The position numbers and the translations under genes were made by a program. Shown here piece after piece: positions 19,309 through 56,635 of a stretch of DNA of 64,000 nucleotides. A model generated the notes under the pieces. That model saw only the letters and a program-made list of their open reading frames with translations, was not told the origin of the DNA and did no database searches. Every line of letters begins with the position of its first letter. Position 1 is the first letter of the stretch. Origin of the DNA: Streptomyces sp. T12 (GTDB taxonomy: Bacteria > Actinomycetota > Actinomycetes > Streptomycetales > Streptomycetaceae); contig NZ_CP117866.1 in NCBI RefSeq assembly GCF_028736035.1, positions 11,139,001 to 11,203,000 on the forward strand. The letters are read 5' to 3'.

Positions 19309-20559
19309 TCAGGCCCGCAACCGCACCGGTATCTCCTGCCAGCCGAACGCGATGAACGACGGCACCTGGCGCAACTCGTCCTCACCGACGGCAAGTCGCA
19401 GGTCCGGGAAGCGGTCGAAGAGCGCGGGCAACGCCGTCAGGGCCTCCACGCGAGCGAGCGGGGCGCCGACGCACCGGTGCACCCCGATCCCGAACGCCAG
19501 ATGGTCGTCGGCGCCGCGCGCCGCGTCGAAGCTGTTCGCGTCCGGCCCGTAGTGCACGGGATCCAGCCCCGCCGCGGCGTACGTCGTGATGATCGCGTCC
19601 CCGGCCGCGATGGTCACGTCCCCGACCTTGATGTCGCTGACGGCGAACCGCAGGGGGAGTGACGCGATCGACGGGTGCACCCGCAGCGTCTCGTCGATCA
19701 CCGCGTCCCAGCCGATCTCGCCGGACCGTACGGCGGCCAGCTGCTCGGGGTGGGTCAGCAGGGCGACGACCGCGTTGCCGATGAGATTGACGGTCGTCTC
19801 GAAACCGGCGCCGATCACCAGCAGCAGCGTGTACAGCAACTCCTCGTTGCTGAGCCGGTCGCCGTCCTCGTCGCGCACCCGGATCAGCTCGGTCGTCAGA
19901 TCGTCCCCGGGCTGCTCGCTGCGGTGGGCGATCAGCGCCCCCAGCACCGTACCGATCTGCTGCTGCACGAACGCGGCGTGCTCCGGACTGGGGTCGGAGG
20001 TGTCCATGATGGCCGCGATGAGCTTTGCGGTGTCCTCCCGCAACTCCTCGGGCACACCGAACAGTTCGCAGATCATCCGCATGGGGAGGGGATGGGCGAG
20101 TCCGGCCTTCAGATCGACCACCGCGCCGCCCTCGCCGAGCGCAACGGGCGCGTCGAGCGCGTCGAGCAACTCCGTGGTGATCGCCTCCACCCGCGGCCGC
20201 ATCATCTCCGTACGCCGCTGTGTGAAGCTCGGCGCGACCAGCTTGCGCAGTCGCGTGTGGTCGGCGCCGTACGTGGAGAGCATGTTGACCACGCCGACCC
20301 AGCCCAGGATCCAGCCCCAGGAGGGGTGTTCGGCTATCTCGGGCCACAGCCTCCAGTGCTGTCGCGGGTCCTTGCTGACCTGCGGGTCGAGAATGAGCTC
20401 CTTGAGGGTGTCGTAGCCCGTGGGTGCCCATGCGGGGATGCCGCCAGGCAGCTCTACGGGCACGATCGGGCCGAGGGCGCGCAGCCGGGCGCTCTCGCCG
20501 GGGATGTCGGCACCGAACGGGTCGATGGCGATGCGGTCGATGCGGTCGGACACGGTCAC
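19309..20559 (-). CDS. Conservon-associated cytochrome P450 (canonical)
   Basis: 416 residues from GTG 20559. An AGGAG lies eight bases upstream inside the preceding gene, and the GTGA overlaps that gene's stop. All P450 signatures are present: I-helix AGFETT at 251-256, ExxR as ETLR at 290-293, and heme loop FGIGVHRCVGAP with Cys363. It is the last gene of the cvn operon, the position held by one of the P450s of Streptomyces coelicolor conservons 9-13. Substrate and electron partners are not encoded here. The tight coupling to the other P450 suggests they work together or pass on one signal. Confidence 0.92.
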   Translation of the reverse strand: MTVSDRIDRIAIDPFGADIPGESARLRALGPIVPVELPGGIPAWAPTGYDTLKELILDPQVSKDPRQHWRLWPEIAEHPSWGWILGWVGVVNMLSTYGADHTRLRKLVAPSFTQRRTEMMRPRVEAITTELLDALDAPVALGEGGAVVDLKAGLAHPLPMRMICELFGVPEELREDTAKLIAAIMDTSDPSPEHAAFVQQQIGTVLGALIAHRSEQPGDDLTTELIRVRDEDGDRLSNEELLYTLLLVIGAGFETTVNLIGNAVVALLTHPEQLAAVRSGEIGWDAVIDETLRVHPSIASLPLRFAVSDIKVGDVTIAAGDAIITTYAAAGLDPVHYGPDANSFDAARGADDHLAFGIGVHRCVGAPLARVEALTALPALFDRFPDLRLAVGEDELRQVPSFIAFGWQEIPVRLRA

Positions 20560-21794
20560 GACGGAACTCCTGGCTGGTCGGGGGAGCGAGGGCTGAACCG
20601 GACGGGCAGGGAGGTCAGGGAGCGGTGGAAGGGGCCGGGCCGCCAGGTCAGGCGCTCGCGGGGCAGGGCCGGCTCCAGGTCGGGAAGCCACTGGGTGAGC
20701 CGTTCGATCGCCTCGGTGGCGATGAGCAGCGTGTGCTGTCGGACCGGGCAGGCGTGCGGGCCCGCCGACCAGGACAGGTGCGAGGCGTCCTTGGGGTGGC
20801 GGCCGCTGGTGATCTCCCGCTCCGCGAAGTGCGCGAGCGCCCCGTAGGAGACGACCACCGGCACCGCGGCCCTGATCCACGTGCCGTGGAAGGACACCGG
20901 GCTGCGGGCGTAGTGGATGCCGTAGTTGGCCAGGGGTGTCTCGTGATGCAGCACCTCCACCACGGCGTCCATGACCGGGCGGGCCCCGCTGGTGAGCGTG
21001 GAGTAGTAGAGCGGGTTGCCGAGGATGCGGGACAGCGCGTTCGACACCAGGTTGGCCGTCGGCTCGTGCCCGGCGCCGAGCGTGAGGAACACCTGCCAGG
21101 TGACCTCCTCGGGCGTCAGCCCCGCCGGGTGGTCCAGCAGCCGGCTCGGCAGGTCGTCGCCGCGCCGCTCGGCCTTGGCCGCGATCAGCTCCAGCACGTA
21201 GCCGCCGAACTCCGCCTCGCCCTCGGCCGCTTCGGCGCCGCCCTCCATCATCTTGCCCAGCGCCCCGTCGAGCCTCTCGCTCTGGCTGTCCGGCAGCCCG
21301 AAGAGGTTGTTGAAGACCAGCGCCATCAGCGGCCGCGCGAACTCGCCCACCAGATCGGCCTCGCCCTTCGGCCCGAACCGGCCCACCAGCACCCGCACCG
21401 CCCGGTGCACCCGCGCCCGCAGGTCGTGCGGCTCGATGAGGTCGAAGGTGTCGATCAGCGAGGTGCGGTACCGGGCATGGGCGGCGCCGTCGGCGAACAG
21501 CGTGTTGGGCCGCCAGCGCATCATGCCCAGGATCGGCGAGTCGTCGGCGACCGTGGACTCCCACGGCCGCGGGTCGTGCGAGAACGTGTCCGTGTCGTGC
21601 AGCAGATCCAGTGCCGCCCGCCGGTCGGTGACGACGTACGCCGGCACGCCCGGCGCCAACTCCGCCCAGCCGAGCGGGCCCTGGGCGCGCAGCGCCTCGT
21701 AGTAGCGGTACGGATCCAGCGCGAAGCCGTCCTCCCACAGGCGCACGGGTGCCGCGCGGGAGAAGGCCTGCCGGTCGGGGGAGTGGGTGGTCAC
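20556..21794 (-). CDS. Conservon-associated cytochrome P450 without ExxR
   Basis: 412 residues, joined by ATGA overlaps to cvnD upstream and the second P450 downstream. The I-helix reads AGHEPT (241-246). The K-helix position reads E280-V-L-H283, so the near-invariant ExxR arginine is missing. The heme loop is SWSAGPHACP with Cys349, and the usual Phe is replaced by Trp. Loss of ExxR is known in the CYP157 family of streptomycetes. The protein may bind heme but be an atypical catalyst or a ligand sensor for the conservon GTPase system. Confidence 0.9.
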   Translation of the reverse strand: MTTHSPDRQAFSRAAPVRLWEDGFALDPYRYYEALRAQGPLGWAELAPGVPAYVVTDRRAALDLLHDTDTFSHDPRPWESTVADDSPILGMMRWRPNTLFADGAAHARYRTSLIDTFDLIEPHDLRARVHRAVRVLVGRFGPKGEADLVGEFARPLMALVFNNLFGLPDSQSERLDGALGKMMEGGAEAAEGEAEFGGYVLELIAAKAERRGDDLPSRLLDHPAGLTPEEVTWQVFLTLGAGHEPTANLVSNALSRILGNPLYYSTLTSGARPVMDAVVEVLHHETPLANYGIHYARSPVSFHGTWIRAAVPVVVSYGALAHFAEREITSGRHPKDASHLSWSAGPHACPVRQHTLLIATEAIERLTQWLPDLEPALPRERLTWRPGPFHRSLTSLPVRFSPRSPDQPGVPS

Positions 21795-22441
21795 CGGTCC
21801 TCCGGAGCGTGACGGTCGATCAGGTGCTGGACCAGCGCGAGCAGCGCGTCGACGGACGAATCCGCATCCCGCGCGTCACACGTCAACATCGGCGTGTCCG
21901 CGTCCAGGTCCAGGGCGGCGCGCAGCTGTTCCTCGGTGTAGTGGCGCGGCGCGTCCGGAAAGGCGTTGAAGGCGACGGCGTACGGCAGCCCGGACTCCTC
22001 CACCAGCCCCAGCACGTCGAACGACGCGTCGATCCGACGGCTGTCGACCAGGACCAGGGCGCCCAGCGCGCCGTAGGCGATGTCGTCCCACAGCGCCCGG
22101 AACCGCTCCTGCCCGGGCGTGCCGAACAGATACAGCACGACCCCGCCCGGCAGGCTGATCCGGCCGAAGTCGACGGCGACGGTGGTGGTCGACTTGTCCC
22201 GCACCCCGGCGAGATCGTCCACCTGCGCGGACGCCTCGCTGAGCGGCTCCTCGGTGTGCAGGGGACGGATCTCGGAGACGGAGTCGATCAGGGTCGTCTT
22301 GCCCACGCCGAAGGGACCGGCGACCAGGATCTTGACCAGGTCGAGGGCGGTGTCGGGCAGGTGGATGCTGCCGTCCGCGTCAGGGGTCGCACCAACTGCC
22401 TTGGTGGTGCGGCTAGTTGTGCTTGAGGGCGCGAAGGCCAT
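21791..22441 (-). CDS. cvnD: Conservon GTP-binding protein CvnD
   Basis: 216 residues. The P-loop is GPFGVGKTT (42-50), followed by a switch-like TTTVAVDFGRISL strand, the Walker-B/G3-like FGTPGQERFRALW and a YAVAFNAFPDA segment near the G4 position. CvnD proteins are small GTPases of the MglA-like type working with CvnA-C at the membrane, rather like a eukaryotic G-protein switch. The start overlaps the end of cvnC by 29 bp, and the stop overlaps the P450 start by 4 bp. Confidence 0.9.
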   Translation of the reverse strand: MAFAPSSTTSRTTKAVGATPDADGSIHLPDTALDLVKILVAGPFGVGKTTLIDSVSEIRPLHTEEPLSEASAQVDDLAGVRDKSTTTVAVDFGRISLPGGVVLYLFGTPGQERFRALWDDIAYGALGALVLVDSRRIDASFDVLGLVEESGLPYAVAFNAFPDAPRHYTEEQLRAALDLDADTPMLTCDARDADSSVDALLALVQHLIDRHAPEDR

Positions 22442-22775
22442 CGGCCACTCTCTTCAGCAGGTCGGGGTCGAAGCGTCCGGCGGGCGGGATCGGCGCACGG
22501 GCCAGCACCAGGTCGCGGTCGATGAGTTCGGCCGCCAGGACACGCACCGCGGACACCGGCAACCGCAGCAGCGCAGCGGCCTCCACCACCGTCAGCGAAC
22601 CGTCGTCCAGGGCGTCCAGCAGGGCGAGTTGGGCGGCGGGCAGACCGGCGGGGGCGGGCGTTCCGGCGCCGGTGAGCACCGACAGCCGCTCCAGGTGGGG
22701 CCGGCTGGGCCGGGCCACGCCGCCGGTCGACAGATACGCGGGAACCAGGGGGCGGCCGCCTCGGCGGCCGGTCAT
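22413..22775 (-). CDS. cvnC: Conservon protein CvnC (DUF742)
   Basis: 120 residues, the family's usual length, from ATG 22775, which overlaps the cvnB stop. It has the DUF742 pattern: VPAYLSTGGVARPSR, then HLERLSVLTGAG, then a winged-helix-like stretch (LTVVEAAALLRLPVSAVRVLAAELIDR) and a PPAGRFDPDLLKRVADGLRAL tail. DUF742 proteins act with the roadblock protein and GTPase in conservons; the tail probably contacts CvnD. A long extension of the frame upstream to 23786 is an artefact. Confidence 0.9.
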   Translation of the reverse strand: MTGRRGGRPLVPAYLSTGGVARPSRPHLERLSVLTGAGTPAPAGLPAAQLALLDALDDGSLTVVEAAALLRLPVSAVRVLAAELIDRDLVLARAPIPPAGRFDPDLLKRVADGLRALKHN

Positions 22776-23194
22776 GCCGGAGCGCCGCCGTCGGCACCTC
22801 GGGGCGCGGCGGCCATCGCCTTCTCGCCCAGCCGGGCCACCTGCGAGTGCACCCGGTGCGCGAGCAGATCCAGACGCACCTCCTCGTCCCCGTACGCGGC
22901 CACGCACGTGCCGTGGTCCGTCGGCACGATCAGCACGTAACCGTGGTCCGACTCGATGACGACCTGCCGCACCTCGGCCCGCTCCCGGTCGGCGAACGCG
23001 GCCGCCGCGGTACGGCAGGCTCCCTGCACGGTGCTGGTGATCGCGGCCACCCGCTCGGCCGAGGGCCGCGTGAGCGCGTCCGTGTACCCGGTCACCATTC
23101 CGTCCCGCGTGAGCAGCACGGCGGCCACCACATGCGGCACCTGCAGGATCGGTTCGAGCACCCACGCCGTGTCTCCCGCATCGCGGCTGGTCAT
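22772..23194 (-). CDS. cvnB: Conservon roadblock/LC7 protein CvnB
   Basis: 140 residues, one roadblock/LC7 domain: VPHVVAAVLLTRDGMVTGYTD, then SAERVAAITSTVQGACR, then VVIESDHGYVLIVPT. Roadblock proteins regulate small Ras-like GTPases such as MglA; here the partner is CvnD. The start overlaps the cvnA stop by 4 bp (ATGA) and the stop overlaps cvnC, indicating translational coupling and fixed stoichiometry. Confidence 0.92.
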   Translation of the reverse strand: MTSRDAGDTAWVLEPILQVPHVVAAVLLTRDGMVTGYTDALTRPSAERVAAITSTVQGACRTAAAAFADRERAEVRQVVIESDHGYVLIVPTDHGTCVAAYGDEEVRLDLLAHRVHSQVARLGEKAMAAAPRGADGGAPA

Positions 23195-24735
23195 CGAGCC
23201 GTTCCCCCTTCATGGTCGGTCTGATCGGTGTCGTTCGCCGCGGCTTCGGCGCGCTGTGGCGCCGCGTGCGCGGCTTCCGGTACGGCGGTGGAGGCGCCGC
23301 CGGTGCTCTCGTCGGCCGCGGACCGCGCGGCGGCGGTACCGGCCTGCAGCGCACCCAGCGCGGCGGCGGCCCGCTCCGGGCGGCGCACCGCGGGCCGCGG
23401 CGCGGGCACGTCACTCGCCGCGGCGGCCGGCGTCGTACGGCGTCGGCGCTGCGGCAGACCACCGGAGTCCCGCGGAGCGTGATGCCCGGATACGGCGCCG
23501 GAGGTGTCGTCGTCGTGCTCGGCCCCGTATCCGTGCGAGGTGCTGGACGCCTCACCTCGGGAGACGGCGGACGTCTCGCCTGAGGGGCCGTCGGACGTCT
23601 TGTCCGGGGAGCCGCCGGATGCCTCGTCCCGTGAGTCGACGGCGTCCTCGTCCCGGGCGGCCGGGCGGGTGGAGCGCGGCGCGCTCGCCGCGGGCGGTCG
23701 CTCGTCGGGGTCGATACGGCTGAGCAGATGGCTGTCGACCCGCAGTACCGCCCGCACCCCGCCGTACGGCGACGGCGACGACACATCCACGCTCAGGTCG
23801 AACTGCCGGGTCAGCTGCCCGATCGCGGCGAGCCCCATGCGCGGCGGATCGCCGAGCTCGGTGAGGAGAATCGGCTCGGAACCCGCCACCAACCGCTGCG
23901 CGCGGGCGCGTTCGTCCTGGGTCATGCCCAGACCCGCGTCGTCGACCGTGACGCAGGCGCCGTGATGCACGTGCTCCAGGTTGACCACGACATCCGTGTC
24001 GGGTGCGGAGTGCCGCAGGGCGTTGTCGAGGAGTTCGGCGACGATGATCGCGACCGGCTCGACGGCGTGCGACACGAGCCCGGTCCCCGCCGCCAGGTGA
24101 TTGTGGACCCGGACCCGGTGGTAGCCCGCGAGCCGGGCCTGACCGCCGGTCACCGCGTCCACCAGATGCGACTCCTCGCGGGCCAGCCCGACCCAGGCCC
24201 CGCACACCACGGCGGCGACCTGCGCCCGCCGCAGCGACTGCTCGTTCTCGTGGTCGAGCTGGAACAGGGTCTGCGTCAACTCCGGGTCGTCGTACTTCTG
24301 TTGGAGCCCGCGCAACGAGTCCTGCAGCCGGTACAGTCCCGCCTGGATCTCGCGCGTCGCCCCGCGCATACCGGCCTGTGCGGCCGCGTCGATCCGGGTG
24401 TGCTGCGCGGCCAGCTCGGTGTGCAGCCCGGCGAGCACATGCTCCAGCGCGAGGCCCAGTGGTGCCCTCGCCGTCTGCGGATGCAGCGGACCCGGCACGG
24501 CGAGGTGGGGATGCGCCAGCTGCCGGGCGGCGGCCGGGACGCGCTGCGTCGCAAGATGCTCGACCTCGGCCGTGAACGCCTCCAGCGCTCCTTCGAGTTG
24601 GCGGCGCAACGCGTCGATCTCGGCACGCTGCCTGGCCTGTTGCCGCTGTGCGCGCAGCAGCCCGCCGCCCAGGGCGAGTGCGGACAGCATGCCGACGGCG
24701 AGGCCGCCGGTCGCCAGGTCCGGTATTTCGATCAT
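23191..24735 (-). CDS. cvnA: Conservon sensor histidine kinase-like CvnA
   Basis: 514 residues from ATG 24735 (GGGA about nine bases upstream). One N-terminal membrane helix (GGLAVGMLSALALGGGLL), a charged coiled-coil (RAQRQQARQRAEIDALRRQL), a helical middle region, then a HATPase_c domain with N-box ELLDNALRHSAPDT and G1 DDAGLGM. The C-terminal ~170 residues are acidic, Ser/Pro-rich and disordered, ending in a basic QRRRRT segment. It heads the operon and probably detects an extracellular or membrane signal relayed to CvnB-D; no response regulator is nearby. The 293-bp gap before it holds the divergent promoter region with the 78-residue gene. Confidence 0.9.
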   Translation of the reverse strand: MIEIPDLATGGLAVGMLSALALGGGLLRAQRQQARQRAEIDALRRQLEGALEAFTAEVEHLATQRVPAAARQLAHPHLAVPGPLHPQTARAPLGLALEHVLAGLHTELAAQHTRIDAAAQAGMRGATREIQAGLYRLQDSLRGLQQKYDDPELTQTLFQLDHENEQSLRRAQVAAVVCGAWVGLAREESHLVDAVTGGQARLAGYHRVRVHNHLAAGTGLVSHAVEPVAIIVAELLDNALRHSAPDTDVVVNLEHVHHGACVTVDDAGLGMTQDERARAQRLVAGSEPILLTELGDPPRMGLAAIGQLTRQFDLSVDVSSPSPYGGVRAVLRVDSHLLSRIDPDERPPAASAPRSTRPAARDEDAVDSRDEASGGSPDKTSDGPSGETSAVSRGEASSTSHGYGAEHDDDTSGAVSGHHAPRDSGGLPQRRRRTTPAAAASDVPAPRPAVRRPERAAAALGALQAGTAAARSAADESTGGASTAVPEAAHAAPQRAEAAANDTDQTDHEGGTAR

Positions 24736-25028
24736 CGAGTCGGTTCCCAGGAGGTCGGTTCGGGGGCAGTGGGCAGGGCTGGTTCCGAGGCCTTGCGGCG
24801 AGGCGCTCGGAGCACAGTACACACCGTCATCGACCGATCTCGCACGGTCGACGGACACTTCGCTTCGAAAGTGCCGGGGCTCTGCTCACTTCTGCGTCGA
24901 CTGTCTGAATTGCCGTACAACATGGGGGAGTTGGGGTGGATGCCCGCCTCCAGAGGTGTCGCGTGTGTGCCCGTTCGGGCGGCGGGTACTCGGCGAGGCC
25001 AGGAACGGCAACGCCGGAGGAGGCCAGA

Positions 25029-25464: not shown

Positions 25465-25519
25465 CGTTCGGCCCGTCGCACCGAACGGGCTTGCTAAGGT
25501 GCTACTCGTCGGTAGCAAG
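25465..25519. promoter_or_regulatory. Two inverted repeats upstream of the acyl-AMP ligase
   Basis: CGTTCGG and CCGAACG flank nine bases (25465-25487). Immediately after, CTTGCTA and TAGCAAG flank 16 bases (25490-25519). Both are candidate operators for the cluster. No regulator gene is adjacent, so the binder is unknown. Confidence 0.4.
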
Positions 25520-25691
25520 TCGTATGGGGGGCGCGAGGGGTAGGCGGACCGCGCCACAGCTCCTCGGCGGGTCGTCGAGACGGAAGGTCTGGCAAGGGGG
25601 CCGGGCCGACCGAGGCGTCTGCGCGTTGTCATCACGCGCCCCTCGAACTCCAGTTCCTCGCCCACTGATCCAGACAGGTGTGACTCGCCAC

Positions 25692-27467
25692 ATGGTTCGT
25701 TCCCTGGTCGATCTGCTGACCACGCACGCCTCGCACCATCCCGACCGAACCGCCTACCGCTACCTCGTCACCGGTGACTGCGACGGCGAGATCCAGGAGA
25801 TCTCGTACGGCCGTCTCGCCGAACGGGCCCGGGCCGTCGCGGCCTGGCTGCAGGAGCGTGGACTGACCGGCAGTCGCGCCATGCTGCTCTACCCGCCCGG
25901 CCCGGAGTTCATCTGCGGCTATCTCGGCTGCCTCGCGGCCGGTGTCGTCGCCGTACCGGGTGTCCCGCCGCAAGGCCGCGCGCAGAACCACCGTGCCCTG
26001 ACCCGGATGAAGCGGCTCATCGCCGACGCCGACGCCAAGGTGATCCTGGGCGGCCGCGAGGTGATCACGGCCCTGTCCGGCATGGTGGAGCACCTGCCCG
26101 ACCTGGCCGACATCACCCTCGTCGTCACCGAGGACATCCCCGACGAGGCGGCCGCCTCCTGGCGCGAGCCGGACCTCACCGCCGACTCGGTGGCCTTCCT
26201 CCAGTACACCTCCGGCTCCACCTCCGCCCCGCGCGGCGTGATGGTCACCCACGGAAACCTGCTGGACAACGAGCGGGTCATCACCGAGCGCATGGGCCAC
26301 ACGCCGGACGTCATCGCGCAGTACGGCCACGAGATGTTCGTCAGCTGGCTGCCCGTGTACCACGACATGGGTCTCATAGGCCCCGTCCTCAACACGGTCT
26401 ACCTGGGCGTGACCGCCACCCTCTTCTCCCCGCTGCACTTCCTCCAGCAGCCCCGACGCTGGCTGACCGCGATCGACCGCTACCGCCCGCACACGAGCGG
26501 CGGCCCCAACTTCGCCTACGAGCTCTGCCTCAAGCACGCCGGTCCCGAACTCCTCGACGGCCTCGACCTCAGCAGCTGGAAGGTCGCCTTCAACGGCGCC
26601 GAACCGGTCCGCGCCGCCACCCTGCGACGCTTCACCGACACCTTCGCCCCGGCCGGCTTCCGCCGCGAGGCCCTCTACCCCTGCTACGGCCTGGCCGAGG
26701 CCACCCTGATGGTCACCGGCAGCACGGTCACCACCCCGCCCACCCTGCTCCGGGCCTCCGAAACGGGCCCGCACGCCGGCCAGGCCGACGCTGCGGCCGT
26801 CAGCTCCGGACGCCCCGGCCCCGACGTCACCGTCGCCATCGCCGACCCCGAACGGCACGAGGAACTGCCCGAGGGCGAGGTCGGCGAGATCTGGGTGCGC
26901 GGCGCGAGCGTCGCCAAGGGCTACTGGCGCAACGCCCTCGCCACCCGCGAGACCTTCCGCGCCACCCTGACCGGCCACGAAGGCCGCTTCCTGCGCACCG
27001 GCGACCTCGGATTCCTGCGCGACGGCGAGCTGTTCGTCACCGGCCGCCTCAAGGACCTCATCGTCATCGACGGACGCAACCACTACCCGCAGGACCTGGA
27101 GCTGACCGCCGAGATGGCCCACCCGGCCCTGCGGCCCGGCTGCACCGCCGCGTTTTCTGTCGACGGGGGAGACGCGGGAAGCGGGTCAGACGTGAGCTCG
27201 TTCAACGGGTCGGAGGTGAGCTCGTTCGGCGAACAGCCCGTCATCGTCGCCGAGATCGCCCCTGACGCGGCGGGCGAGGCGGAGAAGATCATCGACGTCG
27301 TGCGCAGTGCGATCGGCGACGCCCACGGTCTGGCGGTGCGTGACGTCGTCCTGGTCCGGCCCGGCACCATCCCCAAGACGTCCAGCGGCAAGATCCAGCG
27401 CCATGCCTCCCGGGCGGCCTACCTGGACGGCGTCCTCGCCGTGATCGACGCGCCCGCCCTGAGCTGA
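25692..27467 (+). CDS. Fatty acyl-AMP ligase (FAAL)
   Basis: 591 residues from ATG 25692. ANL-superfamily motifs: YTSGSTSAPRGVMVTHGN (ATP loop), SWLPVYHDMGLIG, CYGLAEATLMVTG, RTGDLGFLRDGELFVTGRLK and the terminal Lys in KTSSGKIQRHAS. The SWLPxYHDMGLIG signature and overall fit to mycobacterial FadD32/FadD26-type enzymes point to a FAAL, which makes acyl-AMP and passes the acyl chain to an ACP rather than to CoA. The C-terminal subdomain has an odd insertion with a near-repeat (SDVSSFNGSEVSSFGE). It lies 64 bp before the synthase gene, whose first domain is an ACP, the likely acceptor. Confidence 0.9.
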   Translation: MVRSLVDLLTTHASHHPDRTAYRYLVTGDCDGEIQEISYGRLAERARAVAAWLQERGLTGSRAMLLYPPGPEFICGYLGCLAAGVVAVPGVPPQGRAQNHRALTRMKRLIADADAKVILGGREVITALSGMVEHLPDLADITLVVTEDIPDEAAASWREPDLTADSVAFLQYTSGSTSAPRGVMVTHGNLLDNERVITERMGHTPDVIAQYGHEMFVSWLPVYHDMGLIGPVLNTVYLGVTATLFSPLHFLQQPRRWLTAIDRYRPHTSGGPNFAYELCLKHAGPELLDGLDLSSWKVAFNGAEPVRAATLRRFTDTFAPAGFRREALYPCYGLAEATLMVTGSTVTTPPTLLRASETGPHAGQADAAAVSSGRPGPDVTVAIADPERHEELPEGEVGEIWVRGASVAKGYWRNALATRETFRATLTGHEGRFLRTGDLGFLRDGELFVTGRLKDLIVIDGRNHYPQDLELTAEMAHPALRPGCTAAFSVDGGDAGSGSDVSSFNGSEVSSFGEQPVIVAEIAPDAAGEAEKIIDVVRSAIGDAHGLAVRDVVLVRPGTIPKTSSGKIQRHASRAAYLDGVLAVIDAPALS

Positions 27468-27531
27468 CACCGCCCGGTTCACCGTCGTACGGCGATCTCC
27501 CTTGCCCGAATCCATGAGGACACCTGTCTAC

Positions 27532-41475
<13,944 letters not shown>

Positions 41476-41480
41476 CGGCG

Positions 41481-41517
41481 CCGGGCAGCAGCGATGAAGC
41501 CGGGCAGCAGCGATGAA
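41481..41517 (+). repeat. Tandem duplication between PKS and ACP-reductase genes
   Basis: Two adjacent copies of CCGGGCAGCAGCGATGAA, starting at 41481 and 41500, fill half of the 71-bp gap between the two genes. They push the reductase start away from the PKS stop and may alter translational coupling. Confidence 0.85.
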
Positions 41518-41546
41518 AGAGCAGGGCAACACCGTGAAGGGCTCTC

Positions 41547-43967
41547 ATGCGTGAGGTGAAGGACAACGTGCCGGCAACCGCCGATCAGCGGGCGACCGCG
41601 GAGGCGATCGAGCGGGGCGGCGTCGGTCTGACCGTGACCGACCTGCTGGCCAGGGTCACCGGGTCGGCCGAGCCGGCCGTGCGACCGGATGCCGCGGATC
41701 CTCCGGCACCCCGCGGCGCCGGCCCGGGCACGGCTTCGCCCGTCCACGGCACCCCGCCCCGCGACGTGGACGCCCTCGCCTGCGCTGTCGCAGCCGTTGC
41801 GGGCCGTCACGTCCCCGCAGGACAACTGGCGCCCGACGCCGACTTCTTCGACGCCGGCGGCACCTCCGTGAACGCGGTGGAGCTCGTCGCGGCGCTGGAG
41901 GAAGAGCTGGGCGTGCCGGTCGACCTGGATGAGGTGTTCGCCGATGCCAGGCCGATCAGCTTGGCCAGGCGCGCGCTGGAGAGCGCGGGATCCGGGGCGG
42001 CCGTACCGGAAACGCCGCGACACCCGGATGCCGGCCCCGCGGTGATGCGGGCGGTGCAGGCTCCACCGACGGCCGCCCTGTCCCTCACCACCCCGGCGGG
42101 CTCCACAGCCCGCCGCGACGACCTCACCCAGATCCTCGCCGACCTGGCCCTCGCCGACCGCCTGCCCTTCACCGCCTCGCCCGACCCCCTCCCACCGCGC
42201 CGCATCCTGCTGACCGGCGCGACCGGCTTCCTCGGCAGCCACATGCTCCTGGACCTGCTGCGGCACAGCGACGCCCATGTGTACTGCCTGGTCCGGGCCG
42301 CCGACGAGGAGGCGGCCGTGAACCGGCTCGGCGAGGCGCTCAAGGGCTACGCGCTGCCCTGGTCGTCGGAGATCCGCCGCCGCATCACCGTGCTGCCCGG
42401 CGACATCCGCCACCCCCGTCTGGGCCTCACCGACGACCTCTGGAACACCCTCGCCCACGAAGTGGACAGCATCGTGGGAGTGGCGGCCGCCGTGGACTTC
42501 CTGCGCGGCTACCAGTCCCTGCGCACCAGCAACGTCCTCGGCGCCCTCACCCTCGCCGAACTCGCCGCGACGGGCCGCCCCAAGCCCCTGCACCACATCT
42601 CCTCCATCGCCGTCTTCAACGAGGTCGGCATCCCTGCCATGGGCGAGGACGACCCCCTCGCCCACATCGACCGCCTCGTCGCCGGCTACGACCAGACGAA
42701 GTGGGCCGCCGAAGTGGCCCTGCGCCGCGCCCGCGACCACGGCCTGGTCGTCACGGCCCTGCGCCCGGGCGGCATCGGCGGTCACACCAAGACCGGCGCC
42801 TACAACCCCCAGGACCTGAGCAGCGGCCTCATCTCGGCCTTCGGCCGCTTCCGCACGGTCCCCGCCTTCCGCTACCTCAACGCCGGCCCCGTCGACTGGG
42901 TCAGCCGCGTCGCGGTCGCCGTCATCTGCGAACCCGACGCCTGGGGCTTCGACTACAACCTCACCGGCGTCCCCAACACCCTCGACGACGTCGTCAGCGA
43001 CATGGCCCTCGGCGGCATGCACGTCCGCGTACAGGACTGGGACGAGTGGCGCACCGACGCCCTGGCCCGCCTCCAGGCCGACCCGATCCCCGAACTGGCC
43101 TTCCTCACCCGCGTGTTGCAGAGCCCCACCGCCCTGAAACTCTGCGAGGCGACCCTGAAGGGACCGGCCGCCACGGCCGAGCGCACCATCGCACTCGTCG
43201 AGGCCCTCGGTCTTCGCCCGGCCTCCCGCTACGACGCCCGAGCCCAGCTGAAGACCTTCGAACGCCTCGCCCACGACGGTCTGGCCCGCCTCCCGCACAA
43301 GGACGACCAGCCCTACCTGTGGTTCACCGAGACCACCGAAGGCACCGTCGCCCCGATCCCCGCCACCCCGGCCACGCCCGCTGCGGCCCCCGCCACCCCC
43401 GACATCCCCTGCGCGATGTCCCTCACCCTCTCCCTCGCGAGCATGCACCAGCTGGTGACGGACCGCCGCGTCGACGTCCGAGGCGAGGTCACCTGCCCGG
43501 CCCTGCACCCCGAGCCGCTCACCGTGGAACGCGGCGACATCTGGATCCGCCCCGAGGGAGGCATCCCGCACCGGCACGGCCTGCGCCACCAACTCCTGCG
43601 CTACCACCTGCGGTTGACGGACACCGACGGCGGCCGCTGGTGGCTGGAGGGCCACAAGTACGCCCGCGCCCGCCGCGACCTCTGGCGCCAGACCCGCGCC
43701 CTGACCGTGGAACTCGGCCGCGAGGGCGAACCGGCGAGCCTGGCCGGCGAGGTCGTCGTCCCCGCCGACTCCTACGTACGCGACCAGATCGACGGCATCA
43801 AGGTCGACCCGCGCCTGACCAGCCAGGAGAAGCGCGCCGCCAAGCTCACCTGGCTCGCCTGGTTCGGCCTGGAGATGGGCCGCGGCCTGCTCGGCCCCTT
43901 CGCCCGGGCCGCCGCGGACCTGCTCGACCTGCGCCGCACCACGAACCCCACGGAGCACCACCGATGA
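41547..43967 (+). CDS. ACP-thioester reductase with extra C-terminal lipocalin-like domain
   Basis: 806 residues. ACP at ~73-145 with Ser107 in FDAGGTSVNAVEL. Thioester reductase (extended SDR) at ~215-580: TGATGFLG (223-230), SS at 352-353, and YDQTK with Tyr381 and Lys385. Residues ~623-795 form a further domain (GDIWIRPEGG, WWLEGHKYA, ADSYVRDQIDG). I recall this type lying between the GMC oxidoreductase and alpha/beta hydrolase parts of large actinobacterial cholesterol-oxidase-like proteins. The reductase should release the assembled chain from its ACP as aldehyde or alcohol. The ACP may also be the acceptor of the FkbH-derived glyceryl group. The stop overlaps the next gene by ATGA. Confidence 0.85.
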   Translation: MREVKDNVPATADQRATAEAIERGGVGLTVTDLLARVTGSAEPAVRPDAADPPAPRGAGPGTASPVHGTPPRDVDALACAVAAVAGRHVPAGQLAPDADFFDAGGTSVNAVELVAALEEELGVPVDLDEVFADARPISLARRALESAGSGAAVPETPRHPDAGPAVMRAVQAPPTAALSLTTPAGSTARRDDLTQILADLALADRLPFTASPDPLPPRRILLTGATGFLGSHMLLDLLRHSDAHVYCLVRAADEEAAVNRLGEALKGYALPWSSEIRRRITVLPGDIRHPRLGLTDDLWNTLAHEVDSIVGVAAAVDFLRGYQSLRTSNVLGALTLAELAATGRPKPLHHISSIAVFNEVGIPAMGEDDPLAHIDRLVAGYDQTKWAAEVALRRARDHGLVVTALRPGGIGGHTKTGAYNPQDLSSGLISAFGRFRTVPAFRYLNAGPVDWVSRVAVAVICEPDAWGFDYNLTGVPNTLDDVVSDMALGGMHVRVQDWDEWRTDALARLQADPIPELAFLTRVLQSPTALKLCEATLKGPAATAERTIALVEALGLRPASRYDARAQLKTFERLAHDGLARLPHKDDQPYLWFTETTEGTVAPIPATPATPAAAPATPDIPCAMSLTLSLASMHQLVTDRRVDVRGEVTCPALHPEPLTVERGDIWIRPEGGIPHRHGLRHQLLRYHLRLTDTDGGRWWLEGHKYARARRDLWRQTRALTVELGREGEPASLAGEVVVPADSYVRDQIDGIKVDPRLTSQEKRAAKLTWLAWFGLEMGRGLLGPFARAAADLLDLRRTTNPTEHHR

Positions 43968-45115
43968 TCTTCCGGACGACGAATCCCAGGACCACCAGGC
44001 CGGCCCTGCGCAGGGTCAGGACCACCACGCCCCTGCGCCCGCTGCGCCACCGCCTCGACCCGGCGACGGTCGAGGAGATCCCCTTCCACACGACCGACGG
44101 CGTACGCCTCGGCCTGACCCGCATCGACACAGGCGACCGCGCCCCCGCCCGCGACCGCCCCGCCGTCCTGCTCCTGCACGGACACACGGCCTCGGCCGAC
44201 ATGTTCCTGCTGCCCGAGACCCGCAACCTGGTCGACGCCCTCCTGGACGAGGGCTACGAGCCCTGGCTGCTCGACTGGAGAGGCAGCTGCCGACTGCCCT
44301 ACAACGAGACGGGCCGCCGCTACACCTACGACGACGTCGCCCTCTACGACATCCCCGAGGCCGTCCGCCACCTGCGCACCCGCATCGGCGACCGCCCCCT
44401 GTTCGCCGTCGCCCACTGCATAGGCTCCCTCACCCTCTCGATGAGCATGACGGCAGGCCTGGTACCCGGCCTGGCCGGCGTGGTGTCCCAGGGTGTCTTC
44501 CTCACCCCGAAGCTCGCGGGCCGTACCTCCCTGCGGATGACCCTGGCCGGGGAACTCCTCAAGTCCCGTATCGACCACATCCCCGTCGACCTGCGCAAGG
44601 TCGGCCTGTGGTCGAAGTACACCCCGCTGTTCGCCCTGGCCTCCCGCAGGGCGACCTGCCCGGACCCCACCTGCCAGATCCTGCACAACTCCGCCTGGGG
44701 AACCGGCGCCTCCCTCTTCGTCCACGAGCACCTGACCGACGCCACCCACGACCGCCTGGCCGAACTCCTCGGCCCCGCCCCGCTGTGGATCCTGCCGCAC
44801 CTGCGCCGCATCGAACTGGCCCGCACCGTGGTCCGCTGGCACGACACCGACCACCGCTACCAGGCCCTCCCGCAGAACGCCCTGGACGCGGCGGCCCGCA
44901 TCGACACCCCGGTGCTGCTCCTCGCGGGCAGCGAGAACGGCCTGTGGCTCGACTCCCAGAAGCTCTGCCGCGACGTCCTCGCCCGCCGCCAACCACAACT
45001 GGACGTCACGTACACCGAGATCCCCGGCTACGGCCATCTCGACACGTTCCTGGGCAGGGGAGCGGCCCTCGACGTCTTCGGGCACATCCTCGATTTCCTG
45101 GGCGAACGCCGGTGA
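43964..45115 (+). CDS. Alpha/beta hydrolase with Cys nucleophile
   Basis: 383 residues from ATG 43964 in an ATGA overlap with the reductase gene; the open frame upstream to 42701 is a shadow. Hydrolase fold: VLLLHGHTASADMFLLPE, WLLDWRGSCRLPY, nucleophile elbow AHCIGS (Cys in place of Ser), acid region LLLAGSENGLW, and IPGYGHLD with the catalytic His. The order and phrases such as CPDPTCQILHNSAWG match what I recall as the C-terminal hydrolase part of GMC oxidoreductase fusions. It probably acts on the product or an intermediate of the synthase, for example as acyltransferase or esterase. Confidence 0.85.
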   Translation: MIFRTTNPRTTRPALRRVRTTTPLRPLRHRLDPATVEEIPFHTTDGVRLGLTRIDTGDRAPARDRPAVLLLHGHTASADMFLLPETRNLVDALLDEGYEPWLLDWRGSCRLPYNETGRRYTYDDVALYDIPEAVRHLRTRIGDRPLFAVAHCIGSLTLSMSMTAGLVPGLAGVVSQGVFLTPKLAGRTSLRMTLAGELLKSRIDHIPVDLRKVGLWSKYTPLFALASRRATCPDPTCQILHNSAWGTGASLFVHEHLTDATHDRLAELLGPAPLWILPHLRRIELARTVVRWHDTDHRYQALPQNALDAAARIDTPVLLLAGSENGLWLDSQKLCRDVLARRQPQLDVTYTEIPGYGHLDTFLGRGAALDVFGHILDFLGERR

Positions 45116-45132
45116 CGACAGGCGGTGGGCCC

Positions 45133-45138
45133 GGCTAC
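45133..45138 (+). promoter_or_regulatory. Possible internal -10 box before second hydrolase
   Basis: TACCGT lies about 45 bp before the ATG at 45182, in the gap after the first hydrolase. No clear -35 was found. Confidence 0.3.
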
Positions 45139-45181
45139 CGTACCGGTCCGTAACGAGAAACTGGATACCAGGAGGCCACCC

Positions 45182-45961
45182 ATGCCGCAGCTCGAAGTCG
45201 ACGGCGCGACCCTGAGTTACGACGACGAGGGCCCCCGCGACGCCGACGCCGTGCCCCTGGTGTTCGTCCACGGCTGGACGGCGAACCGCCACCGCTGGGA
45301 CCACCAGGTGGCCCACTTCGCCGAGCAGCGCCGCGTCGTCCGCCTCGACCTGCGCGGCCACGGCGAGAGCAGCGGATCGGGGGTGCCAACGATCGCCGAC
45401 CTGGCGAAGGACGTCCTGGCCCTCCTCGATCACCTGAAGATCGAGCGGTTCGTGATCATCGGCCACTCCATGGGCGGCATGACCGCGCAGACCATCGCCC
45501 TCGCCCACCCGGAGCGGGTCGAGCGCATGGTGCTGGTGGACTCCATCGGCAAGATGGCCTACAGCCGGGGCCGCGCCCTGCTGATGGCCGCCTCGACGCT
45601 CGCCCCCTTCAAGCTGTTCGTCGCCGCCAACATCCAGCGCGCCTTCGCGCCCGGTTACCCGCGCGAGGAGGTCCGCGCGCACATCCGCGCCTCGGCCGAG
45701 ACTCCCCGCGAGGTCGTCATGACGCTCTACGGCGCCATGCGCGCCTTCGACGTACTGGACCGGGTCGGCGAGATAGACGCGCCCACCCTCATAGTCCACG
45801 GCTATCACGACATCCAGCTGCCCGTCGCCCAGATGCTGCGGATGGCCAAGGCCTACCCGGACGCGGTGGTCCGCATCCTGGACGCCGGCCACGAACTGCC
45901 GGTGGAGAAGCCGGCCGAACTGACGCTGGCGCTCGACCGCTTCCTCGCCGACCGCGCATAG
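45182..45961 (+). CDS. Alpha/beta hydrolase
   Basis: 259 residues from ATG 45182 with AGGAGG seven bases upstream. Triad: nucleophile Ser in GHSMGG, Asp in HGYHDIQL, His in AGHELPVE. The oxyanion-side HGWTANRHRWDHQ and RGHGESS are typical of esterase/haloperoxidase-like hydrolases. It is 66 bp after the Cys hydrolase on the same strand, so it may be the last gene of the lipid/polyketide cluster and could edit or release acyl chains. It may instead be an independent housekeeping esterase with its own promoter. Confidence 0.85.
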   Translation: MPQLEVDGATLSYDDEGPRDADAVPLVFVHGWTANRHRWDHQVAHFAEQRRVVRLDLRGHGESSGSGVPTIADLAKDVLALLDHLKIERFVIIGHSMGGMTAQTIALAHPERVERMVLVDSIGKMAYSRGRALLMAASTLAPFKLFVAANIQRAFAPGYPREEVRAHIRASAETPREVVMTLYGAMRAFDVLDRVGEIDAPTLIVHGYHDIQLPVAQMLRMAKAYPDAVVRILDAGHELPVEKPAELTLALDRFLADRA

Positions 45962-53367: not shown

Positions 53368-53963
53368 GGCGTCAGGGTCCTCTCGAGGATGCTGCGCAGT
53401 TCTGCCAGGAAGGCCTCGCTGCTCAGGTCGGCGTCGTCCTCGTCGGTCATGGTCCGCAGGGACAGCGTGAAGGACTGGACGATCAGCAGCATGGCCCGCG
53501 CCTGCCGTTCGGCATGACCGGTGCGTACGGACCCGTTGGCGTGGCCCTCGCGCAGGGCGTCGGCCAGCAGCGCGATGAGGGCCTCCTGGCTCGCGCCGCG
53601 GCGGTCGAGGACGTAGGGGAGGAGCAGTTCCGGATCGACGTCGACGATCTTCCGGAACAGCGGATGGGCGCGGAAGGCCTCCACTCCGGCCACGAGCCCG
53701 TCGACGATCAGGCTCCGCGCGTCGGCCCCGGGGTGCCGCTCGGGCATGGCCCCCGTGGCCACCGCGACCCACTCCCGGGTCATCAAGTCCCCGACCAGGG
53801 TGCGCACATCGGGCCAGCGCCGGTACAGCGTCATCCGGGAGACCCCCGCGCGGCGGGCCACGTCGGTCAGCGTCGTGCGACGGACACCGACGGCCAGGAC
53901 GCAGTCGCGCACCGCGTCGAGCACCGCATCGCTGTCCGAGTGGTTGTGACGAATAGGCGTCAT
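53364..53963 (-). CDS. TetR-family regulator
   Basis: 199 residues. Helix-turn-helix TTLTDVARRAGVSRMTLYRRWPD at ~30-52 and a helical ligand domain. It overlaps glpD by 4 bp, so the two are coupled. The 73-bp divergent gap to the flavoprotein gene contains TGTCACAGTGTAAC, a low-GC stretch likely to hold both promoters and the operator. It probably represses both sides in response to a lipid or acyl-CoA ligand; this is inferred from position only. Confidence 0.88.
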   Translation of the reverse strand: MTPIRHNHSDSDAVLDAVRDCVLAVGVRRTTLTDVARRAGVSRMTLYRRWPDVRTLVGDLMTREWVAVATGAMPERHPGADARSLIVDGLVAGVEAFRAHPLFRKIVDVDPELLLPYVLDRRGASQEALIALLADALREGHANGSVRTGHAERQARAMLLIVQSFTLSLRTMTDEDDADLSSEAFLAELRSILERTLTP

Positions 53964-54036
53964 GTGTCACAGTGTAACGCCTGCGAGGCCGTCCGGGACA
54001 CGGCATCGCTCGAATCGACCGGTGAGGACGACGGCC

Positions 54037-55635
54037 ATGGACATGTTGTGGAGCGGTTGGGGCGACCCGGCCAAGGCGGCGCCGCTGCCCGAGACGGTGA
54101 CCGCGCTGCTGCGCGACCTGCTCGGCGTCAAGCCGCGCACCGCCGGGCCGGTCTCCCTGGAAGACATCGCCGTACCCGAGCCGAGCCTCGAACCCGCAGC
54201 GCGCCAAGCCCTGCTCGCCGCCGTCGGAGGCGAGGAGCACGTCCGCACCGACGCCGAGACCCGCATCCGGCACACCCGCGGCAAGTCCACCCCCGACCTG
54301 CTCCGCATCCGCGACGGCGAAGTCGACGACATCCCCGCAGCCGTCGTACTCCCCGCCGACCACGACGACGTGGTCGCCGTACTGCGCGCATGCGCCGAAC
54401 ACGGCCTGCCCATGGTCCCGTTCGGCGGCGGCACCTCCGTCGTCGGCGGCCTCGCCCCCGCCCGGCGGAGCCCCTTCATCGCCCTGGACCTGCGGCGCAT
54501 GGACCAGCTGCTCGCCCTCGACCCGGTCTCCCGCACGGCCACCCTGCAACCCGGACTCCGCGCCCCCCAGGCCGAGGCGCTGCTGGCCGAACACGGCTTC
54601 ACCCTGGGCCACTTCCCCCAGTCCTACGAGTGGGCCACCATCGGCGGGTTCGCCGCCACCCGCTCCAGCGGCCAGGCATCCGCCGGCTACGGCCGCTTCG
54701 ACGAGATGGTCCTGGGCCTGACCCTCGCCACCCCTGAGGGCACCATCGACACCGGCCGCGCGCCGCGCTCGGCAGCCGGGCCCGACCTGCGCCAGCTCCT
54801 GCTCGGCTCGGAGGGGGCTTTCGGCGTCATCACGTCCGTCACGGTCCGGATCCGCCCCGTCCCCCAGACCCGCGTGTACGAGGGCTGGCGCTTCCCCTCC
54901 TTCGAGGAAGGCGCCGCCGCGCTGCGCCGCCTCGCTCAGGACGGCCCGCGCCCGACGGTGCTGCGGCTGTCCGACGAGACCGAGACGCTGATCGGCCTCG
55001 CCCAGCCCGACGCCATCGGCGCCGACGGCGCGGGCCTCCAGCCCGCGGGATGCATGGCGATCGCCGGCTACGAAGGCACGGACGAGGACGCCTCGTACCG
55101 CAGGGAGGGGGCCGCAGCCGTCCTGCGCGCATGCGGCGGAACCCCGCTCGGCGAGGAACCGGGACAGCGCTGGGCGCACGGCCGCTACTCGGCCCCCTAC
55201 CTCCGGGACTCCCTGCTGGACGCGGGGGCGTTCGCGGAGACACTGGAGACGGCGGCCTTCTGGTCGCGCGTCCCGGAGCTGTACGCCTGCGTGCGCGAAG
55301 CCCTCACCACCACGCTCACCGAGTCCGGCACCCCGCCCCTGATCATGTGCCACATCTCCCACGTCTACGAGAACGGCGCCTCCCTGTACTTCACCGTCGT
55401 CTCGGCACAGGGCGACGACCCCGTGGCGCACTGGGAGAAGGCCAAGCACGCCGCCAACGAGGCGATCCTCACCGCGGGCGGCACCATCACCCACCACCAC
55501 GGCGTGGGCACCGACCACCGGGACTGGTACGTCCGCGAGGCGGGACCCCTGGGTATCGAGGCGCTGCAAGCCGTGAAACGCCGACTGGACCCGGCGGGCC
55601 TGCTCAACCCCGGCGTCCTCCTGCCCGCCGACTGA
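54037..55635 (+). CDS. FAD-binding oxidase, alkyl-DHAP synthase-like
   Basis: 532 residues from ATG 54037. FAD-binding PCMH domain: VPFGGGTSVVGGLAP and SYEWATIGGFAATRSSGQAS. The C-terminal FAD-linked oxidase part carries CHISHVYENGASLYF and THHHGVGTDHRDW. These match the alkyldihydroxyacetonephosphate synthase segments with the active-site HHH motif. AGPS swaps the acyl chain of acyl-DHAP for a fatty alcohol, forming the ether bond. Bacterial homologs of this kind, such as mycobacterial Rv2251, are not proven to do so. Divergent from tetR-glpD and 118 bp before the lipid kinase. Confidence 0.85.
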   Translation: MDMLWSGWGDPAKAAPLPETVTALLRDLLGVKPRTAGPVSLEDIAVPEPSLEPAARQALLAAVGGEEHVRTDAETRIRHTRGKSTPDLLRIRDGEVDDIPAAVVLPADHDDVVAVLRACAEHGLPMVPFGGGTSVVGGLAPARRSPFIALDLRRMDQLLALDPVSRTATLQPGLRAPQAEALLAEHGFTLGHFPQSYEWATIGGFAATRSSGQASAGYGRFDEMVLGLTLATPEGTIDTGRAPRSAAGPDLRQLLLGSEGAFGVITSVTVRIRPVPQTRVYEGWRFPSFEEGAAALRRLAQDGPRPTVLRLSDETETLIGLAQPDAIGADGAGLQPAGCMAIAGYEGTDEDASYRREGAAAVLRACGGTPLGEEPGQRWAHGRYSAPYLRDSLLDAGAFAETLETAAFWSRVPELYACVREALTTTLTESGTPPLIMCHISHVYENGASLYFTVVSAQGDDPVAHWEKAKHAANEAILTAGGTITHHHGVGTDHRDWYVREAGPLGIEALQAVKRRLDPAGLLNPGVLLPAD

Positions 55636-55649
55636 CCCCACACCCGCCT

Positions 55650-55708
55650 GCTCAGCCCCCCACACCCACCCGCTCAGCCCCCCACATCCACGCGCTGAGC
55701 CACCCGCC
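55650..55708 (+). repeat. 22-bp tandem repeat, about 2.7 copies
   Basis: Units starting GCTCAGCCCCCCACACCCAC lie at 55650 and 55672, with a partial third at 55694. They fill half of the gap between the flavoprotein and lipid kinase genes. Confidence 0.85.
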
Positions 55709-55753
55709 CCCCGTCTCCGGCAGCACCCTCCCGTCGGCCCGAAAGGCTCACCG

Positions 55754-56635
55754 ATGCGACAGTTCACCGCCATCGTCAACCCCACGGCGGGCGGATCCGC
55801 CTCGGCTGCCGCCCTGCTGCAGGTGGCCCGGCTGCTGCGGGAGGCCGGGGCCGGGCTGGAGACCGAGTACAGCCGCAGCCTGCCCCACGCCCGGGAACTC
55901 GCCCGGGACGCCGGACAGCGGGGCAGGGTGGTGCTCGCCGTCGGCGGCGACGGAATCGCCGGCGGCATCGGCGGCGCCCTCAGCGGCACCGGTGCCCTGC
56001 TCGGCCTCGTCCCGGCCGGCCGCGGCAACGACTTCGCCCGGGCGCTGAACCTCCCCACCGACCCCGCGGCACTCGCACAGGTGCTTCTGCACCACGAGCC
56101 TCGTAAGGTCGACACCATCGAAGTCGAGTCGGCCGTCCACGACCGCACCGTGGTCCTCGGCAGCGTGTACGCGGGCGTCGACGCACTGGCCAACCGCCAT
56201 GCCAACAACGCCACGCTCCTGCGGGGTGCCGCCTCCTACTACGCGGGCGGACTGCGCGCCGTCACCACCTGGCGCCCCGCGCGCTACCGGGTCACCGTCG
56301 ACGGCCGCGAACACCGCCTCACCGGCTACACGGTCGTGGCCGCCAACTCCGGCTACTACGGCTCAGGCCGCCTCATCGCGCCCGACGCCCGCGTCGACGA
56401 CGGCCTGCTGGACGTGGTGATGATCCAGGAGGCGCCGCGTCGGCTGTTCTTCGCCCTGATGAACGACCTCAAGACGGGCGCCCACGTCCACCGACCCCAG
56501 GTGCGGATCCTGCGGGGCAGGGAAGTCCGTATCGAGGCCGACCGTGAGGTGCCCTACGGCGCGGACGGCGAGGTCGACGCGACCCTCCCGGTCACGCTCA
56601 GAGTCCTGCCGGGAGCACTGCACGTACTGTGCTGA
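55754..56635 (+). CDS. Diacylglycerol/lipid kinase (YegS/DagK family)
   Basis: 293 residues. DAGK catalytic domain: FTAIVNPTAGGSAS at the N-terminus, VVLAVGGDGIAGGIG (GGDG motif) near 60-74 and PAGRGNDFARALNLP after it. The C-terminal beta-sandwich includes SGYYGSGRLIAPDARVDDGLLDVV. It phosphorylates diacylglycerol or a related lipid with ATP. The GGDG motif usually continues TxNE; here it is IAGG, an oddity. Together with glpD and the AGPS-like gene it suggests a conserved glycerolipid locus. Confidence 0.9.
   Translation: MRQFTAIVNPTAGGSASAAALLQVARLLREAGAGLETEYSRSLPHARELARDAGQRGRVVLAVGGDGIAGGIGGALSGTGALLGLVPAGRGNDFARALNLPTDPAALAQVLLHHEPRKVDTIEVESAVHDRTVVLGSVYAGVDALANRHANNATLLRGAASYYAGGLRAVTTWRPARYRVTVDGREHRLTGYTVVAANSGYYGSGRLIAPDARVDDGLLDVVMIQEAPRRLFFALMNDLKTGAHVHRPQVRILRGREVRIEADREVPYGADGEVDATLPVTLRVLPGALHVLC

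Follow-up and report, generated by a model that had tools for sequence, protein, structure and literature searches.

A foxicin-type five-gene core in Streptomyces sp. T12 suggests a corrected reading of how its acyl chain is started and released

The foxicin cluster of Streptomyces diastatochromogenes Tü6028 (Tue6028), described in 2017, contains five core genes in a row (PMC5318452; KT440882): foxBI (583 aa), foxBII (4807 aa), foxBIII (945 aa), foxEI (378 aa) and foxEII (259 aa). FoxBII is a polyketide synthase (PKS) with the published domain order ACP-KS-AT-DH-KR-ACP-KS-AT-DH-KR-ACP-C-FkbH, C being a condensation domain, and both of its ATs are predicted to use methylmalonyl units. In the authors' reading, the acyl chain of foxicin A is made of isobutyryl and two methylmalonyl units, its β,γ double bond is ascribed to an unusual DH1, and in the producer the acyl group ends as an amide on an aminoquinone (PMC5318452). 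The five core genes were found side by side in 21 further strains, including S. regalis, S. curacoi and S. avermitilis, and the published homologues share 73–96% identity (PMC5318452). Here we describe a locus in a 64,000-nucleotide stretch of Streptomyces sp. T12 (the window; positions 11139001–11203000 of an 11,360,781-base contig, in a genome of 11.46 Mb and two contigs). Judged by sequence, its positions 25692–45961 almost certainly hold the five-gene core of a foxicin-type cluster.

The locus matches foxBI-foxBII-foxBIII-foxEI-foxEII of Tue6028 gene by gene and domain by domain. Five adjacent genes stand in the fox order, the PKS has the domain order of FoxBII, and identity to Tue6028 is 74.5–86%, as among the published homologues. 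All of the features lie on the forward strand:

25692..27467, + strand: putative fatty acyl-AMP ligase (FAAL), FoxBI homologue; open frame 25491–27467 with a conserved start at 25692; 79.7% identity to FoxBI over 590 columns
27502..41475, + strand: two-module PKS with C and FkbH domains, FoxBII homologue, 4657 aa; start may be 27532; 74.5% identity over 3341 columns, domain order collinear
27592..27816, + strand: N-terminal ACP (loading carrier) with the Ser motif LGLGS; approximate boundaries
27883..33126, + strand: module 1, KS-AT-DH-KR-ACP; DH1 motif HTVFGRTVVS
33214..38571, + strand: module 2, KS-AT-DH-KR-ACP; DH2 motif HKVTGEVWLP
38662..39831, + strand: condensation domain with HHAVSD; PF00668, 86.0 bits
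39832..41403, + strand: FkbH domain; an N-terminal stretch of ~200 aa, then the TIGR01686 match at 40444–41403
41547..43967, + strand: carrier, putative thioester reductase and C-terminal domain, FoxBIII homologue; 81% identity over 621 columns and 54% over a further 126
43227..43964, + strand: C-terminal domain of the reductase protein, unassigned; β-barrel-like in the predicted model
43964..45115, + strand: α/β-fold protein with Cys at the nucleophile elbow (AHC[IV]G), FoxEI homologue; 86% identity
45125..45961, + strand: α/β hydrolase with the Ser motif GHSMG, FoxEII homologue; 83% identity

The alternative PKS start at 27532 corresponds to the residue at which the frame of one relative begins. 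GC content by codon position gives coding support to four of the five genes; the FoxEI homologue failed this filter and is supported instead by Pfam matches and conservation. In the DNA fetched for the Tue6028 locus, frames of 583, 945, 378 and 259 aa reproduce the published core sizes and frames of 481 and 371 aa those of foxGI and foxA, and the FoxBII frame measures 4869 aa when counted from its earliest possible start.

An earlier sequence-only reading of this DNA had placed the named parts about where the open reading frames and the Pfam and NCBIfam profiles put them. It had also held that no described system has this exact order, naming a known cluster with the same domain order as the finding that would speak against it. 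The foxicin cluster has the same gene and domain order (PMC5318452). An undescribed system is ruled out by that 2017 publication, and the locus is one more copy of a known system, the core of which has already been described in Streptomyces. The FAAL, C-FkbH and reductase assignments of that reading stand; the novelty of the order, the long chain and the lipid role do not.

In the window PKS, the starting ACP and the two modules with KR and DH were confirmed by Pfam and NCBIfam in the order ACP-KS-AT-DH-KR-ACP-KS-AT-DH-KR-ACP-C-FkbH. Neither an ER nor a TE family, both said earlier to be missing, is among the matches listed for it (18 Pfam families and the best 25 of 181 for NCBIfam). Residues were counted in 118 rows, namely the window and 117 full-length homologues, three shorter sequences of the best 120 being left out (the two homologue lists give the best 120 of 444 and the best 120 of 558). 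The KS1 cysteine and the AT motifs YASH and FASH are each present in 118/118 rows and the AT1 motif GHSQGEV in 117/118. The window DH1 has the Ser-type motif HxxxGxxxxS, and the six commonest forms listed for DH1, covering 111 of the 118 rows, all end in Ser. Because the catalytic motifs are kept in the 117 homologues and the window, they are not a product of chance. As both AT motifs and DH1 of the window are as in Tue6028, the best guess is that its chain is the same as that of foxicin A, the starter itself not being predictable from sequence.

In the sequence-only reading the starter was instead a long fatty acid, and the elongated chain left the line as a polyketide glycerolipid. Long acids are common FAAL substrates, and the window ligase resembles long-chain FAALs. 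That version is nevertheless very improbable, since the sole known product of the family carries a short, isobutyryl-derived chain, and in foxicin A that chain forms an amide with an aminoquinone and not a glycerol ester (PMC5318452); nothing found supports a lipid role. Given the short foxicin chain, a long-chain lipid was rejected as the default product.

The ligase bears on how the chain begins. FoxBI was published as an “A domain”, yet it looks like a fatty acyl-AMP ligase: in Tue6028 it matches PF00501 and PF23024, with no significant match to AMP-binding_C in Pfam. Its window homologue likewise matches PF00501 (237.9 bits) and PF23024 (40.4 bits), which gives it a FAAL-type sequence together with the C-terminal domain. 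Its best PDB matches, at 502 bits, are chains named polyketide synthase, presumably FAAL domains, followed by chains named fatty-acid–AMP ligases, whereas the best amino-acid synthetase (gramicidin) reaches at most 95 bits. The best NCBIfam match is a long model for nonribosomal peptide synthetases and PKSs, over its first 565 positions, and FAAL models come next. In Streptomyces sp. CB02959, ligase and PKS are fused in a single 5021-aa frame. A ligase match was found in 11 of 12 named genomes searched, in two pieces in S. poriferorum, and by coordinates the best match adjoins the PKS in all 11. Amycolatopsis xylanica has no match at E ≤ 1e-100; its PKS (L086, L087, L041) starts with KS-ACP, without an AT match between, and has three modules, and the locus keeps C, FkbH, the carrier-reductase gene and FoxEI. 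The fusion in CB02959, and the loss of the ligase together with a new KS-ACP start in A. xylanica, both fit a starter-loading role for the FAAL. A. xylanica has a fox-type line outside Streptomyces, a genus beyond which the published survey found no fox cluster (PMC5318452).

At the other end of the PKS, the C domain (HHAVSD in the window, HHxVxD in 118/118 rows) finds C domains in general as its PDB matches. The FkbH domain scores 410.3 bits with TIGR01686 (cut-off 146.65) and contains DGDET; DGDxT, DRFGD and SCR are each kept in 118/118 rows, so that both a profile match over the cut-off and a DxD-type motif point to a glyceryl transferase/phosphatase. A literature search for a catalytic Cys of FkbH yielded nothing usable. 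FkbH is named from a role in making methoxymalonyl-type extender units, and such a unit could be intended for the PKS here. This is hardly credible: the genome has no TIGR01686 match besides the window FkbH, which follows a C domain in one fused protein, no acyl-CoA or hydroxyacyl-CoA dehydrogenase family is present in the neighbouring frames scanned (part of the open reading frames), and both FoxBII ATs are predicted to be specific for methylmalonyl (PMC5318452).

FoxBIII, published as “PCP-TE”, looks like a carrier followed by a thioester reductase. TIGR01746, with a cut-off of 213.35, scores 246.3 bits in the window protein and 242.8 bits in FoxBIII of Tue6028, in which no thioesterase is found among the eight NCBIfam matches. 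The Rossmann motif TGxTGFLG and YDxxKW, with its YxxxK pattern, are conserved in 59/59 loci. The carrier motif, in a poorly aligned region covered in 51 loci, is DAGG[TS]SV in 42 and DVGGSSV in one, with three misfits and five loci not listed. The C-terminal domain, of 246 aa, has a mean column identity of 83% in 24 rows, no significant Pfam match and no PDB fold match at E ≤ 0.001; its predicted model is β-barrel-like, with a middling mean predicted local distance difference test (pLDDT) score of 73.1.

In the published model, the PKS takes its starter straight from isobutyryl-CoA, FoxBI adenylates an amino acid and FoxBIII has a terminal thioesterase. The authors proposed it, noting that they were unable to predict the specificity of the A domain (PMC5318452), but the PF23024-type C-terminus of FoxBI without significant AMP-binding_C, the natural FAAL-PKS fusion and the scoring of FoxBIII as a thioester reductase make it improbable. 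The sequence comparisons thus suggest that the published view of foxicin chain start and release needs correcting. No re-annotation of FoxBI or FoxBIII was found in the portions of the foxicin literature available, PMC13170338 included.

We therefore favour a mechanism of six steps, to which we give a probability of roughly 0.5. The FAAL would adenylate a free acid, short and branched, and load it on the N-terminal ACP of the PKS, as the natural fusion supports. The two modules would add two methylmalonyl units, DH1 setting a β,γ and DH2 an α,β double bond; with an isobutyryl starter, the T12 chain would be 2,4,6-trimethyl-2,5-heptadienoyl, the renumbered foxicin A chain. FkbH would dephosphorylate a phosphoglycerate donor and place the glyceryl unit on the carrier of the FoxBIII homologue, the C domain would transfer the chain to the glyceryl hydroxyl to form an ester, and the reductase domain would release an acyl-glyceraldehyde or the alcohol. 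Finally, and speculatively, the two α/β-fold enzymes might transfer the acyl group or cleave it off. A glyceryl unit with reductive release, as proposed earlier from sequence, still appears the most likely mechanism, shorn of its lipid role.

Several points weigh against this mechanism. The window ligase stayed below the curated cut-off of every NCBIfam FAAL model, and FASH in AT2 is the less usual form. FoxEII is missing or was not found in 8 of the 59 loci. Loading, ester formation and reduction in the fox family are inferred steps, the ester and the aldehyde by analogy with malleicyprol synthase BurF and vioprolide, and a different thioester could be the substrate of the reductase. Foxicin A, an amide, contains no intact glyceryl unit (PMC5318452), which disfavours an ester as the end product.

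The amide leads to a second possibility, tentative and less probable than the six steps: the same enzymes would act with an amide-forming C domain, a glyceryl-derived aldehyde or thioester would go into the aminoquinone, the dienoyl chain would be joined to an amine, and the core product would be a foxicin-like aminoquinone. In its favour, foxicin A has just this amide linkage, foxicins are lost when foxBII is disrupted, and the authors derive a C2 part of the ring from FkbH (PMC5318452). The proposed ring genes foxGI-III (sugar metabolism) and foxA (acetyltransferase), however, have no match in the window, though they may lie elsewhere in the genome, and they are absent from most relatives examined. 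By tblastn, foxGI, foxGII, foxGIII, foxA, foxTIV, foxTV and further downstream frames of Tue6028 found no match in the window, which accordingly does not hold the full 41-frame foxicin cluster with these accessory genes nearby; this comparison left out foxC, foxD, foxO and others. Beyond Tue6028, S. albiflavescens (L035) alone has some of the downstream accessory genes, and foxGI has one 59-residue match near the end of L018.

The two α/β hydrolases reported earlier are supported by Pfam at 43964–45115 and 45125–45961. The nucleophile elbow of the FoxEI homologue reads AHC[IV]G in 58/58 loci covered, and Cys152 and His358 are present in 22/22 aligned rows. The candidate for the acid of the triad, residue 324, varies. 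In the predicted FoxEI model, which is poor (mean pLDDT 56.0), Cys152 is flanked by a strand and a helix, the arrangement of a nucleophile elbow. Acyltransferases and hydrolases alike are compatible with a Cys nucleophile. FoxEI could then be a Cys-dependent acyltransferase and not a hydrolase, with the core making a product of its own, an O-(branched dienoyl)glyceraldehyde or glycerol set free by reduction, and foxicin being a strain-specific diversion of the acyl chain onto an aminoquinone; we hold this combination to be unlikely. A FoxEI homologue occurs in 58 of 59 loci, the exception (L014) ending just after FoxBIII, and a FoxEII match in 51, that of L058 spanning just 65 residues.

The 59 loci were collected in one genome scan with six peptide patterns, which does not amount to a census; in the relatives, frame length and third-position GC content served to call genes, a procedure that loses some of them. 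C and FkbH are found in 50 of these 59 carrier-reductase loci, that is, in all 50 that reach upstream of the carrier-reductase gene; the remaining nine begin at or inside FoxBIII. Among 150 genomes of the genus, T12 included, 16 have FkbH in a frame of 4545–5056 aa, and in a 17th (G061), which by coordinates is the S. cyaneochromogenes locus, the frame has only 2325 aa. This count of 17/150, made by FkbH score and frame length without one-by-one checking, puts the core in roughly every ninth Streptomyces species sampled. The published frequency is about 2.6% of strains, in a sample that differs in kind from the 150 genomes (PMC5318452). Leaving aside the core genes and the frames that overlap them, each downstream family is found in at most 16 of the 59 loci, several of which end early. 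Upstream, genes of 12 genomes, the window included, were clustered, and the first 18 clusters common to at least three genomes were listed; the ligase, with a frame inside it, is shared across clades, and the other shared genes listed belong to the window, S. regalis, S. curacoi, S. cyaneus and S. cyaneochromogenes.

Near the core, the reverse strand at 20556–24858 encodes a sensor-kinase-like ATPase, roadblock-like and DUF742-like frames (assigned by eye), a GTP-binding protein (PF03029) and a P450-like protein with no Pfam match, an operon that we take to be conservon-like. At 53962–56635, a FAD-linked oxidase (PF01565, PF02913) is followed by a YegS/diacylglycerol-kinase-like gene, and the pair might act on lipids.

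The core is common (17/150 genomes), yet the literature found names one product family, the foxicins. If a FAAL does start the chain and a reductase does release it, the foxicin pathway as published will have to be redrawn, and product searches for the many silent copies should target aldehydes, alcohols or glyceryl esters. Worth retaining are a revised view of how the chain starts and is released, the Cys conserved in FoxEI, the FoxBIII C-terminal domain, which is unassigned, and the variant line of Amycolatopsis.

Among known systems, the fox cluster of Tue6028 shares with the window its gene order, domains, the Ser motif of DH1 and 75–86% identity; it differs in foxGI-III, foxA, foxTIV, foxTV and several downstream genes without a match in the window, and in published FoxBI and FoxBIII labels unlike those proposed here. 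The S. regalis locus, a separate species by identity, is closer, with a core 90–95% identical to the window. A gene of the type A-PCP-KS-AT-KR-ACP-C-A-PCP-C was reported upstream of fox in S. regalis, S. curacoi and JHA19 (PMC5318452), and a hybrid gene with that domain set, compared by description, lies ~24 kb upstream in T12. Window positions 9–1703 are the tail of this 4103-aa gene (L100:6393-18704), which by Pfam has two AMP-binding domains, two C domains, one KS-AT-KR and three carriers, consistent with that type.

Tetronate pathways also use a glycerate unit at chain termination, but join it by a FabH-like enzyme, none of which is seen among the five core genes by Pfam. The closest characterised logic, by analogy, is that of vioprolide and of malleicyprol synthase BurF. 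The first modules of vioprolide and corramycin follow the order FAAL-ACP-C-FkbH-T, and a glycerate ester has been proposed or shown for them; unlike the fox core, they have no PKS modules between FAAL and C, the peptide continues, and no reductase stands at this point. BurF, likened here by description and not by sequence, extends a fatty-acid-primed chain twice and then has C, an FkbH-type N-terminal extension, T and Red; its C domain was shown to join the chain to a hydroxy acid as an ester, and Red to release an aldehyde, which cyclises (PMC12304814). It uses a sulfonium hydroxy acid in place of glyceryl, and its cyclisation is of the Knoevenagel type (PMC12304814), a course that the α-methyl enoyl of the fox chain should not follow. 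BurF has the FkbH extension only, without the phosphatase and acyltransferase parts (PMC12304814), whereas the fox core has the whole FkbH, in the order C-FkbH and then T-R on the next protein.

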